Assembly (NCBI RefSeq): GCF_023935105.1
Contig: NZ_CP096040.1
Coordinates: 2,852,001-2,916,000 of the forward strand
Direction: 5' to 3'
DNA length: 64,000 nt
DNA from: Caulobacter segnis
GTDB lineage: Bacteria > Pseudomonadota > Alphaproteobacteria > Caulobacterales > Caulobacteraceae
The notes beneath the pieces were generated by a model. That model made no database searches, was not told where the DNA came from, and saw only the letters and a program-made list of their open reading frames with translations. Positions 11,751-50,277 of this stretch are shown here, piece after piece. A program made the position numbers and the translations under genes. The number at the start of each line of letters is the position of its first letter. Within the stretch, counting starts at the first letter, position 1.

Positions 11751-11794
11751 TCGGGAGACCCCGTTCGTTTGGCGCACCCCGGCCAAGCGATGAA

Positions 11795-11945
11795 CGACCA
11801 CGCCGGGCAGGTCTCCTGGCTCGCGGGTCGTTGCTCTTGGCGTCGCCTTCCCAGGGTCTGGACCCCAGTGGCATGTGACGCGAGAGCTCGCCGCTTACAG
11901 TTGCGGGGGCAGCCGAGGTCTTGAACCTCGTTCCCTTTTAATCCT
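11795..11945 (-). promoter_or_regulatory. Cobalamin (AdoCbl) riboswitch upstream of btuB
   Basis: On the minus strand the classic core is present in order: AAAAGGGAACGAGGUU with the matching GACCUC stem, GCUGCCCCCGCAACUGUAAG, CAUGCCACUGG, CUGGGAAGGC, and the B12 box AGCCAGGAGACCUGCC at 11821-11806. This is the class with the large peripheral domain. It would lower expression of btuB and the nine following genes when adenosylcobalamin is plentiful. About 155 bases lie between the B12 box and the btuB start, room for an expression platform. Its 5' end is only about 70 bp from the divergent cobU start. Confidence 0.96.
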
Positions 11946-12012
11946 CTTTCGAGGAGCCTGACGCGCCGCCAGCCCTATATGCTGCGCCGCACACCGTCAA
12001 TGTGGAGCTTCC

Positions 12013-12558: not shown

Positions 12559-13813
12559 TGTTCAGACCGGAGACAAGGTGGACACATGTTCGGGGACATG
12601 GTGGACGGTTTTGCTCTGACGTAGGTCGATCTGGGCCACGACGTGACGGCGGTAGCAGAGGTCGAAGAGGCCATCCTGGTTGGTGGCGCGTAAGGCCATT
12701 TGCTTTCCGGCGAAGGCCTTGGATGTCCGCAAGGTGCGGCCCTTGAAGGCGAACTGGCCGCTGCTGCTGATCTTCCGCACGGTGGCCTGGGGCTCGTATT
12801 CTGGCGGGCGGATGCTGTCGGGCATGGATCTTTGACTCATGCGATAGCGGGTGGCGGGGGTGTCCATGGCCAGGGCTTCGTGAGGCCGCTTGAGGTTGTA
12901 GACCGTTCGCCAGGCGTCGAAGGCGCTCTGGGCGTGGGCAAGGGACCTGAAGGTTCGCGCGTCGAGCGCCTCGGCGTTCAGGGTGCGATGGAAACGTTCG
13001 TCCTTGCCCTGGGTCTGGGGATGATAGGGGCGGCCGTGAGAGACGGCGATATCCAGATCCATCAGCCAGACGCTGAAGCTGGAGTGCTCGCCATGACCGG
13101 CTGAACCCCAGGGCGGGCCATTGTCGCACAGGATGCGCCAGGGCAGGCCGTAGCGGCGGAACACCGCCTCCAGACGCTCGCGCACCGTCTCGCCCGTCTG
13201 GTCGCCGCACGCCCCGACCTCCAGGGCGTAACGGGAATGGTCATCCAGCACCGTCAGGGGATGACATCGCCGCCCGCCCAGCGCGAACCAGCCCTTGAAG
13301 TCCATCTGCCACAGGTCATTGGGCTCAGCGTGCTCGAACCGGATCCAGTCGCGCGCCTGATCGGCTCCGGGGCCGTTCAGGGCGCCGTGTCGGCGAACGA
13401 TCTGGGTGATCGTCGAGGCCGATGGCGGCTGGGCAAGACCTTGGTTCTGCAACACACGGCGGATCTTGCGCCCGCCCCAGGCCGGATGCTCAAGGCGAAC
13501 CGCCATGACCTGCGCCTCCCGCTCGGGCGAGCTGCGGCCCGGAGCGCTCAACGGCCGACGCGACCGATCGCTCAGCCCCTCAACCCCCGCCGCCTTGTAA
13601 AGCGCCAACCACTTGTAGGCCGTCGTCGGACTGATCCCGAAGCGGCGACAGAGCAGTCGCACCTTACCCCCGGGCGACAGCGCAAGCCGGCAAAACTCTT
13701 CCCGTTGAGACACTAAAGAACACTCCCTGAACGGCATGTCGGCTCCTCCGCCTCATGCCAAAAGTGTCCACCATGTCCCCGAACATGTGTCCGCTATCTC
13801 CCCGATCTGTACA
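12559..13813 (-). mobile_element. IS481-family insertion sequence, complete (1255 bp)
   Basis: Begins TGT and ends ACA. The terminal inverted repeats are long: over the outer ~54 bp the two ends align without gaps, with a 27-bp block identical at 12580-12606 and, inverted, at 13766-13792, each exactly 21 bp from its end. A 5-bp direct repeat GCATG flanks the element. It holds one transposase gene that fills nearly the whole length. Perfect target duplications and an undamaged gene suggest recent insertion. Confidence 0.93.
12562..13737 (-). CDS. IS481-family transposase (DDE)
   Basis: 391 residues. The N-terminal helix-turn-helix (residues 8-60: LVSQREEFCRLAL, RRFGISPTTAYKWLALY) binds the ends; the rve integrase core follows with the DDE residues visible in DLWQMDFKGWFAL, ILCDNGPPWG and YHPQTQGKDERFHRTL. 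A C-terminal beta-rich extension follows. No frameshift or stop interrupts it, so it is probably functional. The gene points toward cobU and its end reaches into the left inverted repeat. Confidence 0.96.
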   Translation of the reverse strand: MPFRECSLVSQREEFCRLALSPGGKVRLLCRRFGISPTTAYKWLALYKAAGVEGLSDRSRRPLSAPGRSSPEREAQVMAVRLEHPAWGGRKIRRVLQNQGLAQPPSASTITQIVRRHGALNGPGADQARDWIRFEHAEPNDLWQMDFKGWFALGGRRCHPLTVLDDHSRYALEVGACGDQTGETVRERLEAVFRRYGLPWRILCDNGPPWGSAGHGEHSSFSVWLMDLDIAVSHGRPYHPQTQGKDERFHRTLNAEALDARTFRSLAHAQSAFDAWRTVYNLKRPHEALAMDTPATRYRMSQRSMPDSIRPPEYEPQATVRKISSSGQFAFKGRTLRTSKAFAGKQMALRATNQDGLFDLCYRRHVVAQIDLRQSKTVHHVPEHVSTLSPV

Positions 13814-13830: not shown

Positions 13831-13950
13831 CACGGGGATTGAACCCGCCGTATCCTCGGAGTTCGCGAGGTGGAGTCCATGCAAATCAATAACTTGTCGA
13901 TTTCAGACGCCGCTGAATGATCCGCGTTCAGGCCTCCACCATACTGATCC

Positions 13951-14330
13951 CATCTCGTCGGGAGGAAAGGGCGCGTGGCCAGCGACCATCGTGGCGGCGG
14001 GGGGCGATCGAGCGGGGACAGGTCCGAGGGGGATACTCGGACAGTCCGGGGCTGGGCTTGCTGGGCTCACCCGCCCGCCGTCGGCGTGGTTGGAGGCAAA
14101 AGGGTCTGTCCTGATCAGTATTGATCCGCCCTCTTCGACCTTTGGGCTTCCGAGGAAACTCGGAGGCCTGGGTCCCGGTAAGGCCTGAACAGGGCCACCT
14201 GACGGGACGCTGGCGAATAACGGTCGCGCGGAGCGTCCTGGCTTCGTCGAAACGGTATCAACTAACTCACACTCCGGACGTCGTCCGGCGCTCCGCGTCC
14301 CTTTCCAGAAACTTCAGCGGCCAGCCGCGT
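13951..14330 (+). repeat. Structured intergenic repeat, copy A (candidate ncRNA)
   Basis: About 380 bp that recurs in inverted orientation at 49846-50220 with roughly 85-90% identity by eye. Hairpins on the plus strand: 14022-14042 (7-bp stem, loop GGGGATA), 14053-14069 (5-bp stem, loop TTGCTGG), 14113-14126 (GATCA/TGATC, loop GTAT), 14147-14166 (8-bp stem, GAAA tetraloop), 14168-14178, 14274-14288 (CCGGAC/GTCCGG), 14317-14328, plus a 9-bp long-range pair 14227-14235 with 14289-14297. Several stems differ from copy B by compensatory changes while loops stay the same. The GNRA loop on this strand suggests the RNA reads left to right. No protein gene is credible here. The rest of the 13819-14462 gap holds nothing else I recognise. 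Confidence 0.85.
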
Positions 14331-14462
14331 GAAGCGGTGGACGCACGCCACGAATTGAGGAAGAGGCTGGCGCAGATGACGCAATGCCCGCACACTCGTT
14401 CAAACGGCCGTTCATCGGCCCTTGTGTCCAAGCGCGAGCAACAGCGCGGGGAGGAGTAAGCG

Positions 14463-15845
14463 ATGACGCAGCGTAAATCGTCATGGGCTCTGGCCAGGTT
14501 CGCCGCGCCGGCCGTCCCGATCGCGGCGATGGGCTTGCCGCTGGTCGTCTATCTGCCCGAGTACTACGTCACCTCGCTGGGCCTTTCGCTGACCACGGTC
14601 GGCGCGGCCTTCCTGATCGTGAAGCTGCTCGACATGCTTCTGGATCCCGTGCTGGGCGGGCTCATGGACAACACGCGGTCGCGCTTTGGCCGCTTCCGGC
14701 CTTGGCTAGCGGCCGGCACGCCGGTGATCGCCATCGGCGCCTTCGCCCTGTTCATGGCGCGGCCCGGCGTTGGTCCTCTTTACCTGTGGTTCTGGCTGTC
14801 CGTCGTCTATGTCGGCTATTCGATGGTGGTGCTGTCGCAGACCGCCTGGGGAGCGGTTCTGTCCAGCGACTACCAGCAGCGCTCGCGTGTCTTCGCCTGG
14901 TGGCAAGGCGCCAATGTCGTCGGCATGATCCTGGTGTTGTGCCTGCCGCCGATCGTCACCGGCGTGTTCAAGGGCGACCACCTGGACAGCATTGCCGCCA
15001 TGGGCTGGTTCATCGTCCTTCTGGCGCCGCTGGCCGTCCTGCTGGCTGTGACCACGGTCGGAGAGCCCGCCGCGCCGCCGCGACACGGCAAGACCAGTCT
15101 CAAGCAGTACTTCGGTTTGCTGGGCCGCCCGTCGGTGCAGCGCCTGCTGACCGCCGACCTGTTGATGGGCCTTGCGCCCGGCATCGCCGGCACGCTGTTC
15201 CTGTTCTACTTCGAGCGCATCAAGGGTTTCGACAAGACCCAGTCCGGCATCCTGCTGCTGATCTACTTCATCGCCGCCCTGGCCGGCGCGCCGATCTGGC
15301 CGATGCTGGCCAAGCGGATTGGCAAGCACAAGGCCCTCGCCGTGGCCTCGGTGGTCTACGCGGTCGTGCAACTGGCGACGGTCTTCATGCCGCCCGGCGA
15401 AGTTGTGCTGGGCATGGTCATCCTGGTCCTGGCCGGCCTGCCCTATTCCGCTGCGCAACTGCTGGTGCGGGCGATGATGGCCGACATCGGCGACGAGGAG
15501 CGGCTGGAAACCGGCGTCGACAAGACCGGCTTGCTCTATGCGATCGTAACGGGGACGGTGAAGCTGGGCTACGCCCTGGCCGTCGGCGTCTTCATCATCC
15601 TGGGCGCCCTGGGCTTCGACCCGAAGACGCCGACCGCCGCCGGCGACGCCGCGCTGGTCGGACTCTACGCCTTCGCGCCGGCGATCCTGGGACTGGTGGT
15701 CGCAGCCGTCATGATGCGCTATCCGCTGGATGCGAACCGCCTCGCCGAGATCCAGCGCCAGCTCGCGGCGCGGGACGCGGCGGCGGGCGCGCAACCGTCT
15801 CCAGCCGAACCGGATCCCCATGCCCTCCACGCCCCCGCCGAGTGA
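14463..15845 (+). CDS. MFS transporter of the GPH (sugar:cation symporter) type
   Basis: 460 residues with about twelve hydrophobic segments. Features of the glycoside-pentoside-hexuronide family are the early LLDMLLDPVLGGLMDNTRSRFGR-type loop between helices 2 and 3 (residues 56-79, D and R rich), RFRPWLAAG, and the matching central loop after helix 6. A strong ribosome binding site (GGGGAGGAG) precedes the ATG. Substrate cannot be told; the alanine/proline-rich C-terminal tail (residues 438-460) is cytoplasmic. Its 3' end overlaps mazG by 26 bp. The upstream 120 bp after the structured repeat would hold its promoter. Confidence 0.88.
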   Translation: MTQRKSSWALARFAAPAVPIAAMGLPLVVYLPEYYVTSLGLSLTTVGAAFLIVKLLDMLLDPVLGGLMDNTRSRFGRFRPWLAAGTPVIAIGAFALFMARPGVGPLYLWFWLSVVYVGYSMVVLSQTAWGAVLSSDYQQRSRVFAWWQGANVVGMILVLCLPPIVTGVFKGDHLDSIAAMGWFIVLLAPLAVLLAVTTVGEPAAPPRHGKTSLKQYFGLLGRPSVQRLLTADLLMGLAPGIAGTLFLFYFERIKGFDKTQSGILLLIYFIAALAGAPIWPMLAKRIGKHKALAVASVVYAVVQLATVFMPPGEVVLGMVILVLAGLPYSAAQLLVRAMMADIGDEERLETGVDKTGLLYAIVTGTVKLGYALAVGVFIILGALGFDPKTPTAAGDAALVGLYAFAPAILGLVVAAVMMRYPLDANRLAEIQRQLAARDAAAGAQPSPAEPDPHALHAPAE

Positions 15846-49301: not shown

Positions 49302-49817
49302 ATGATCCTCGAGACCGAACGCCTGACCCTCTCTCCCCTGACGGTCGACGATACGCCCCTGATCTATCCGTTCCTGAGCGACGCGGAAGTGATGTCCAAC
49401 CTCGACCAGGAACCGATCGAGGATCCCGACGAGGTGGCCAGCCGAGTCGCCGCCCAGGTCGACGAGATGACCGCTGGCGACGCCGCCTACTGGACGATCC
49501 GCCACACGACCAGCGGCGCCTTCCTGGGCTATTGCGAGTTCGTCGACATCGACAAGCGACACGATCGAGCCGAAATCCGTTTCGTGATCGACCGCAAGGG
49601 CTGGGGCCAGGGTTTCGGGGCCGAGGCGGTCGGCGCCCTGCTCGCCCATGGCGCCAGCAGCGGCCTGAAGAGCCTGGTGGCCAGCACCCACGTCGGCGAC
49701 AACCGCGCCGAGCGCCTGTTGCAAAAGCTGGGCTTCAAGGCCCAGGGCTATCTGAAGGGCGCCGTGCACCGCGATGGCGAACGACGCGACCGGCGGCTGT
49801 ACGGGCTGGAGCTCTAG
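49302..49817 (+). CDS. GNAT-family N-acetyltransferase (RimJ/RimL type)
   Basis: 171 residues. Start ILETERLTLSPLTVDD is typical of RimJ-like enzymes; the acetyl-CoA loop is seen in DRKGWGQGFGAEAVGALLAH (Q/RxxGxG/A variant) and the C-terminal core in GDNRAERLLQKLGFKAQGYL. Acetylates an amino group, substrate unknown. It is a single gene divergent from secG; the long repeat-filled gap follows it. Confidence 0.9.
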   Translation: MILETERLTLSPLTVDDTPLIYPFLSDAEVMSNLDQEPIEDPDEVASRVAAQVDEMTAGDAAYWTIRHTTSGAFLGYCEFVDIDKRHDRAEIRFVIDRKGWGQGFGAEAVGALLAHGASSGLKSLVASTHVGDNRAERLLQKLGFKAQGYLKGAVHRDGERRDRRLYGLEL

Positions 49818-49845
49818 GGTTCGGGGCATAGGCTCTCGTCCTCAC

Positions 49846-50220
49846 GCGGTTGGCCGCTGAAGTTTCTGGAAAGGGACGCGGAGCGCCGGGCGACGCCCGG
49901 AGGATTTGGATAGATTACCGTTTCGACGAAGCCAGACGCTCCGCGCGACCGTTATCCGCCAGCGTCCCGTCAGGTGGCCCTGTTGAGGCCTTACCGGGAC
50001 CCGGGTCCTTCCGTTTCCAGAAAGCCCCGAAGGTCGAAGAGGGCGGATCAATACTGATCAGGACAGACCCTTTTGCCTTCAACCCCGCCGACGGCGGGCG
50101 GGTCTGGCCAGCAACCAGATCCCCGGACCGTCCGAGTATCCCCCTCGGACCTGGCCCCGCTCGACCGCCCCCCGCCGCCACGATGGTCGCTGGCCACGCG
50201 CCCTTTCCTCGCGACGAGGT
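49846..50220 (-). repeat. Structured intergenic repeat, copy B (candidate ncRNA)
   Basis: Inverted copy of 13951-14330. On the minus strand it shows, in the same order, hairpins at 50150-50130 (GTCCGAG/CTCGGAC), 50119-50103 (TCTGG/CCAGA, loop TTGCTGG), 50059-50046 (GATCA/TGATC, loop GTAT), 50024-50007 (7-bp stem, GAAA loop), 49900-49886 (CCGGGC/GCCCGG, loop GTC) and 49857-49846 (GCGG/CCGC). Loops match copy A while several stems carry paired changes. Short open frames across it resemble those in copy A only because the DNA is alike. It fills more than half of the 702-bp gap 49818-50519. Confidence 0.85.
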
Positions 50221-50277
50221 GAGAAGAAGCATAAGCCAGCTTTTCAGGGGGAGGAGGCAGAGCGCTGAATGCCCGTA

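Follow-up and report, generated by a model that had tools for sequence, protein, structure and literature searches.

The analyzed DNA, hereafter the window, is a stretch of 64,000 nucleotides from Caulobacter segnis (NZ_CP096040.1, positions 2,852,001 to 2,916,000), whose genome (G000) is a single contig of 5.69 Mb. Two intergenic elements of the same family, copies A and B, lie in it on opposite strands with 90% identity over 380 bases, in agreement with the 85-90% estimated by eye in a preliminary description. Both belong to the subfamily that we call F1. The elements, their parts, and their neighbors are as follows:

12562-13737, minus strand: IS481-like transposase ORF, upstream of the copy A promoter
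13831-13855, plus strand: putative GafY element of the copy A promoter, named by likeness, within a module common to the promoter of the gene transfer agent (GTA) cluster
13884-13896, plus strand: IHF site AATCAATAACTTG of the copy A promoter, matching the IHF consensus WATCARNNNNTTR
13916-13945, plus strand: copy A -35 box AATGAT and -10 box CATACT, with an 18-base spacer and without the GafZ palindrome, by comparison with the published GTA promoter (PMC11150451)
13951-14334, plus strand: copy A (F1), comprising a 5' hairpin, a multibranched core closed by helix P1, a 3' domain, and an end hairpin
13964-13971, plus strand: 5' strand of P1, GGAAAGGG, pairing with 14299-14306
14050-14072, plus strand: variable hairpin with the constant loop UUGCUGG
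14144-14168, plus strand: GAAA-capped hairpin
14228-14296, plus strand: 3' domain (alignment A1, 60 sequences, the basis of covariance model R1)
14299-14306, plus strand: 3' strand of P1, CCCUUUCC
14311-14334, plus strand: end hairpin, CUUCAGCGG..CCGCGUGAAG
14463-15845, plus strand: MFS transporter gene (PF13347, 8.3e-71), outside the element, marker of address A
49302-49817, plus strand: GNAT acetyltransferase gene (PF13302, 6.7e-24), outside the element, marker of address B
49840-50221, minus strand: copy B (F1), convergent with the GNAT gene
50228-50276, minus strand: type-2 promoter of copy B, read in the sequence (its motif was counted by pattern over all upstreams), with the -10 box TATGCT at 50228-50233 and the GafY-like stretch ACGGGCATTCA at 50258-50276

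A cobalamin riboswitch (11789-11976, minus strand, 129.5 bits) is also present in the window. The 3'-domain model R1 matches copy A at 14214-14318 (95.8 bits) and copy B at 49856-49958 (102 bits). Five ORFs overlap the copies, four in the direction of the RNA and one opposite to it, and none has a Pfam match at E <= 0.001; a protein-coding reading was rejected on this ground, and the earlier impression that no convincing protein is encoded holds. The elements do not seem to be fragments of a neighboring insertion sequence either: the IS481-like ORF begins some 94 bases ahead of the GafY-like stretch, and no such ORF is seen in the inspected upstreams of other copies. The three pairs of hairpins on which the preliminary description was built were all found as claimed, namely UGGGC-UUGCUGG-GCUCA (within 14050-14072) versus UCUGG-UUGCUGG-CCAGA (within 50100-50122), the GAAA-capped hairpins (14144-14168 and 50007-50024), and CCGGAC/GUCCGG (14273-14288) versus CCGGGC/GCCCGG (49886-49901).

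Only two copies are visible in the window, as had been noted, but the genome holds many more. A DNA search with copy A gave 15 matches, among which six cover all or nearly all of the element, and the 3'-domain model gave 18, corresponding to 16 full-length copies and two 5'-truncated ones (at 1687 and 1874 kb). By a second DNA search and reading of the loci, the full-length copies were divided into subfamilies F1 (6 copies), F2 (5), F3 (1), and F4 (4), while F5 is represented by loci of other genomes (L045, L046, L087, and L125). Diverged copies have their ends in common and different middles. From the 5' side, the common plan consists of a -10 box, the 5' hairpin, the 5' strand of P1, a conserved GAGCGGG stretch, and a variable core; these are followed by the 3' domain with CGAAACG, the 3' strand of P1, and, in most copies, the end hairpin. 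Within the 3' domain, helix P12 (GCGGAGCG/CGCUCCGC) surrounds the stretch CGAAACGG, and a G-poor linker leads to the P13 hairpin. The invariance of CGAAACGG in alignment A1 is due in part to the gathering of members by patterns that contain it. The linker between CGAAACGGTA and P13 (14258-14272 in the window, and in other copies) is G-poor and varies among most copies, with nearly constant surroundings. The tail CGGCGnnGGCGTGCCC on the 3' side of the end hairpin (14335-14350 in the window, and in other copies) is moderately conserved among 105 tails. A ZTP riboswitch (L003, 2053-2133) adjoins the RNA copy at 5467 kb.

RNAalifold applied to F1 (28 of 48 unique sequences, after a gap filter) returned a single multibranched fold closed by P1. 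Covariation was counted in 21 sequences, obtained from 30 representatives by removing ten of Brevundimonas type and adding copy B (L005). Their alignment comprises 130 pairs with 95.3% of the cells paired, a percentage that is biased upward since the structure was derived from the same 21 sequences. Changes on both sides occur in 33 of the 130 pairs, against 17.2 in shuffled alignments, and the double-changed cells number 127, against 40.8 (sd 6.4; none of 500 shuffles as high) and at most 27 in slid versions. Related sequences may exceed shuffles even without structure, which is rare for counts of both-side changes. The excess of further pair types is weak (85 versus 79.8, reached by 8 of 500 shuffles). 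Double changes affect 9 of 12 pairs in the GAAA hairpin, 4 of 10 in the UUGCUGG hairpin, 4 of 8 in P1, and 4 of 9 in the end hairpin, which are the best-supported helices. Helix P12 has no double changes and is supported by sequence conservation, and P13 has a single double-changed pair, with A-U in 21 sequences of 60 and G-C in 38. The strands of P1 change in step across subfamilies (GGAAAGGG/CCCUUUCC, GGAAGGGACG/CGUCCCUU, and GGGGAGG/CCUCCCC), and this helix appears, whole or mostly, in single-sequence folds of six representatives. The consensus fold energy has a z of -15.5 relative to 20 column shuffles.

Selection on RNA structure, first proposed from the two copies in the window, is thus sustained by the larger alignment with its shuffled and slid controls. 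The proposed reading direction, that of the GNRA loop, is borne out by a promoter upstream on that strand, which also folds better than its reverse (-290.9 versus -243.5). The comparison of sequences demonstrates a compact predicted RNA of about 380-430 nt, with a 5' hairpin, P1, a subfamily-specific core, a constant 3' domain, and usually an end hairpin.

Relatives were searched as well, as the preliminary description had proposed. With copy A as a DNA query, 29 of 61 genomes gave matches, all among the 37 of its own genus and none among the 24 genomes outside the family. Of 390 Caulobacteraceae genomes, 152, belonging to 5 of 22 genera, have matches to the 3'-domain model; since no more than 10 or 11 candidates were scored per genome, copy numbers are lower bounds and absences are not conclusive. 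In a named genome collection, the 3'-domain pattern was found mainly in Caulobacter (including C. vibrioides DSM 9893) and Brevundimonas, among at least 120 stretches. Two stretches (L112 and L138) in which the rest of the 3' domain is missing were dropped as chance matches. Tandem partial duplications of the 3' domain were observed in G265 and G035 (L263, L264, and L265), in G265 beside full copies. Copy A has no match among 72,556 plasmid and 50,697 phage records, and the exact 3'-domain pattern is absent from the viral contigs searched.

The comparison with Rfam 15 gave no match overlapping the elements, either in the window at the gathering score, in six loci at relaxed E-values (L002, L003, L010, L045, L046, and L062, of F1, F2, F4, and F5), or in seven further loci at the gathering score; the relaxed scans covered F1, F2, F4, and F5. 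The low-scoring relaxed matches, mostly to microRNAs, fall beside the element, and a known RNA was therefore rejected. No paper on this RNA family was found in the open-licence literature, and it is not mentioned in the available parts of PMC11150451, PMC9632790, PMC13236601, PMC2229807, PMC10969869, and PMC12286853. The elements are apparently copies of an undescribed folded RNA of about 380 nt, multicopy in Caulobacter and Brevundimonas.

Two intergenic positions were followed across species, in the 16 best-matching loci for address A and the 12 best-matching ones for address B, out of 75 genomes. At address A, beside the MFS gene, 12 of 16 loci carry F1 (the call in G272 comes from a partial match), three carry F5, and in one no RNA was found. 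At address B, beside the GNAT gene, there is F1 in G000, F2 in G264 and G003, and F5 in G032 as well as G270, whereas in G288 the locus is cut off and starts with an F4-like 3' end. The other 6 of the 12 fetched loci have no RNA; in these the sequence 3' of the marker gene is a different one, and consequently no clean empty site was found. Despite conserved positions, then, the bodies have been exchanged between copies. Among 28 F1 elements, identity is 93.2% within a genome (48 pairs), 89.1% between species at address A (55 pairs), and 88.7% in the other pairs between species (275). Together with the occupancy of the two addresses, these figures suggest that the position is inherited and the sequence is homogenized within each genome, as happens with rRNA genes. 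The simplest reading is homogenization by gene conversion, and replacement of copies by incoming DNA is possible. Long-lived addresses whose bodies are exchanged and homogenized within the genome appear established by these comparisons.

The same data bear on the alternative of a selfish, non-autonomous element, which would have captured a GTA-type promoter, multiplied through GTA transfer and gene conversion, and kept its structure for self-propagation. The many dispersed copies, the swapping of subfamilies at one address, and the tandem partial duplications in G265 and G035 could be expected of such an element; several matches lie less than 300 bases from a contig end, as with repeats that break assemblies, and P1 could also be taken for an imperfect inverted repeat. 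However, many species retain addresses A and B, no clean empty site was found, inspection by eye of the borders of ten F1 and F2 copies showed no target-site duplication, and the searches of plasmid and phage records with copy A and of viral contigs with the 3'-domain pattern were negative. We consider this reading unlikely. The preliminary description had left the choice between a new ncRNA and a mobile structured element; the ncRNA half is supported by the covariation, the promoter on the same strand, and the absence of Rfam matches over the scanned copies, while the mobile half, at least in its simple form, finds no support, given positions that persist across species.

The reading as an RNA gene is further supported by the upstream regions, which resemble the promoters of GTAs, virus-like particles that carry DNA out of these bacteria and whose activator is GafY. 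According to the available part of PMC11150451, the GTA promoter of C. crescentus consists of a GafY element, an IHF site, a -35 box (AATCAT), a GafZ palindrome, and a -10 box (TATCTTT). The palindrome and the -10 box are present in the GTA promoters of G001, G281, G264, and G272 and visible in that of G000, and the published letters of the GafY element also occur in those of G001 and G281. In the RNA promoters, the upstream element is retained together with an IHF-like site, the -35, and the -10, and the GafZ palindrome is absent. A module of 130 bases taken from the 5' side of one copy matches the genome at 16 places: 14 of these precede RNA copies, one precedes the GTA terminase genes, and one stands alone. 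This GTA-shared module is thus found at 14 of the 16 full copies, some departing from the strict IHF consensus at one or more positions. The lone match (G000:C1:5133453-5133526, minus strand, locus L065) is of GTA type, with no RNA or obvious gene behind it. In the type-2 promoters, those of copy B and of the copy at 2115 kb, no IHF consensus was seen.

The strict IHF consensus was counted in 116 upstreams and is present in 23 of them, always between -80 and -95; shuffles predict 0.24, and the reverse strand gives one. For a YBE-like motif, picked after inspection of the promoters, the count is 34, with 0.42 predicted by shuffles and 8 on the opposite strand, and most of its sites are near -140 or -70 (16 in the -140 bin). 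Neither strict motif is present in 67 upstreams. Direct alignment with the genome's own GTA promoter gave scores of 27-48 for 4 of the 6 F1 upstreams of G000 and 30-47 for 6 of the 8 RNA upstreams of G003, with shuffled maxima of at most 17 (10 shuffles each). No such alignment was obtained for the two type-2 F1 copies of G000, for the other two upstreams of G003, or for the single copies compared in G001, G002, and G007, where the fetched GTA locus holds the promoter in G001, should hold it in G002 judging from the terminase position, and probably does not in G007.

G207 has no GTA_TIM, the marker gene of the GTA; there, all five RNA upstreams tested align with the upstream of the gafY-like gene (scores 17-27), each above its shuffled maximum, one of them marginally (17 versus 15). 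These upstreams (L223, L227, L233, L239, and L245) contain AATCCCTTGCC or a sequence close to it, partly common to the gafY-like upstream; in some of them its inverted repeat comes next. The corresponding comparisons in G001 and G003 stayed within shuffles save one of 11, and the single one in G264 scored 15 versus 15 shuffled; G134 and G114 were left out of the comparisons with gafY upstreams. A wider regulon defined by the operator GAGCATTCANNGCTC was rejected, its two exact sites both lying before RNA copies or fragments. For part of the copies, the RNA promoters have the layout of the GafY/IHF regulon in the published order.

Co-occurrence was counted in 390 genomes, disregarding relatedness. 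The RNA is present in 152, GTA_TIM in 193, and a GafY-like protein, called as a second protein with the DnaA C-terminal domain, in 220; in several genomes the GafY-like gene is followed by a similar second ORF, resembling gafY-gafZ by eye. RNA and GafY occur together in 146 genomes, RNA alone in 6, GafY alone in 74, and neither in 164. Among the 197 genomes without GTA_TIM these counts are 25, 0, 12, and 160, the RNA being found in 25 of 37 genomes with GafY and in none of the 160 without it. With GTA_TIM they are 121, 6, 62, and 4, with no association. An association between RNA and GTA_TIM exists in genus g1 (both 48, RNA only 5, GTA_TIM only 8, neither 14). No association is seen in genus g16 of the RNA with either GTA_TIM (75/20/32/4) or GafY (92/3/33/3), so that the family-wide association is partly phylogenetic. 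The RNA was not found in 62 genomes with both GTA_TIM and GafY and in 12 with GafY alone. Of the six genomes with RNA and without GafY, four are less than 90% complete, and G217 and G000 are above this value; G000 (99.96% complete, single contig) has GTA_TIM and 18 RNA matches, yet no gafY-like protein was found (12 of 12 candidates scored in one search, 11 of 100 in another). That the RNA requires GTA was rejected given the 25 RNA genomes without GTA_TIM, a test of one gene, as partial GTA clusters may exist without it.

These 25 genomes, the lack of association with GTA_TIM inside g16, and the missing gafY in G000 would fit an ncRNA family whose link with GTA is incidental, drawing on general promoter elements and serving another process. 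Against this, all 25 carry a GafY-like protein and the upstream module is common to the GTA promoter, and we regard an incidental link as rather improbable.

The orientation of the neighbors bears on the choice between an RNA gene and elements acting in cis. In 101 elements with sufficient flanking sequence, the downstream gene is on the same strand in 52 cases and on the opposite strand in 49 (P = 0.84), and the upstream gene is on the same strand in 68, opposite in 30, and undecided in 3; strands were judged by third-position G+C and many elements are orthologous, which makes P no more than indicative. If the RNA were the leader or a riboswitch of the gene that follows, a downstream bias would result; this reading was rejected in favor of an independent RNA gene. 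GTA terminator repeats were also discarded, since the 3'-domain model matches none of 16 loci around GTA clusters (about 6-7 kb each, with a terminase motif in 11). A cis-acting structured RNA, serving as a terminator or insulator between neighbors, could account for the roughly half of the copies, copy B included, that are convergent with a gene, and GC-rich direct repeats do terminate transcription in the C. crescentus GTA cluster according to the available part of PMC11150451, but with a promoter of its own, a structure far beyond that of a terminator, random orientation to the downstream gene, and no match in those 16 loci, we give it very little credence.

The best reading is an independent ncRNA gene family, switched by GafY/IHF with the GTA programme and providing a dosage-amplified trans-acting RNA or RNP, and we assign it about an even chance. 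From promoter likeness and co-occurrence, GafY and IHF would bind the upstream module, RNA polymerase would start on the 3' side of the -10 box, and the onset of the GTA programme would turn on around twelve copies together. Because the promoters lack the GafZ palindrome, transcription would proceed without antitermination and stop at the end of the RNA itself. The many copies may act as a gene-dosage amplifier of a trans-acting RNA or RNP that cells with active GafY would require in large amounts, by analogy with ROOL and GOLLD, which are made with phages; this is the weakest and a speculative part of the proposal. With somewhat less confidence than for the main reading, the GTA programme may have an RNA arm, a dispersed family resembling rRNA genes that GafY would turn on with the particles, that would outlast the particle genes, and whose cores would be interchangeable between a constant 5' hairpin and a constant 3' domain.

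C. crescentus is a model organism, and yet this family is apparently undescribed there. If the promoter link is true, the GTA regulon would include non-coding genes that RNA-seq counting could drop, presumably because similar copies map ambiguously, and what else GafY controls would become directly testable in strains that already exist. The family is also a case of concerted evolution in a bacterial ncRNA, in which positions persist and contents are exchanged.

Among known systems, MITEs are likewise short, non-coding, dispersed, and structured; unlike them, the RNA has its own promoter, compensatory changes in its core, and addresses kept across species, and its ten inspected copies show no target duplication. 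The CIR repeats (Chen and Shapiro 2003, via the available parts of PMC2229807 and PMC10969869) are also intergenic, multicopy, structured, and from Caulobacter, but they measure about 110 bp against about 380 bp here and have a conserved GANTC site; GANTC is missing in 18 of 21 F1 sequences (present in 3, and in at most 2 at any column). This distinction is drawn from the published description of CIR. The GafY/IHF accessory loci share the layout of GafY element, IHF site, -35, and -10. In C. crescentus, 18 chromosomal GafY sites are reported besides gafYZ and the GTA promoter, and the GafY-induced loci are described as protein genes, mostly hypothetical, with no RNA gene mentioned in the available parts of PMC9632790 and PMC11150451. 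GOLLD and ROOL are described, in the parts of the literature available, as large, elaborately folded bacterial RNAs of unknown function linked to phage biology, and their Rfam models have no match over the scanned copies. They are longer (659 nt for the ROOL studied in that literature and often over 800 for GOLLD, against 380-430 nt) and are phage or prophage genes near tRNAs, in contrast to the dispersed chromosomal family described here. GOLLD has a constant 3' region and rises during phage lysis (available part of PMC12286853), and we suggest it as the nearest analogy to the present RNA, one of likeness and not of membership.
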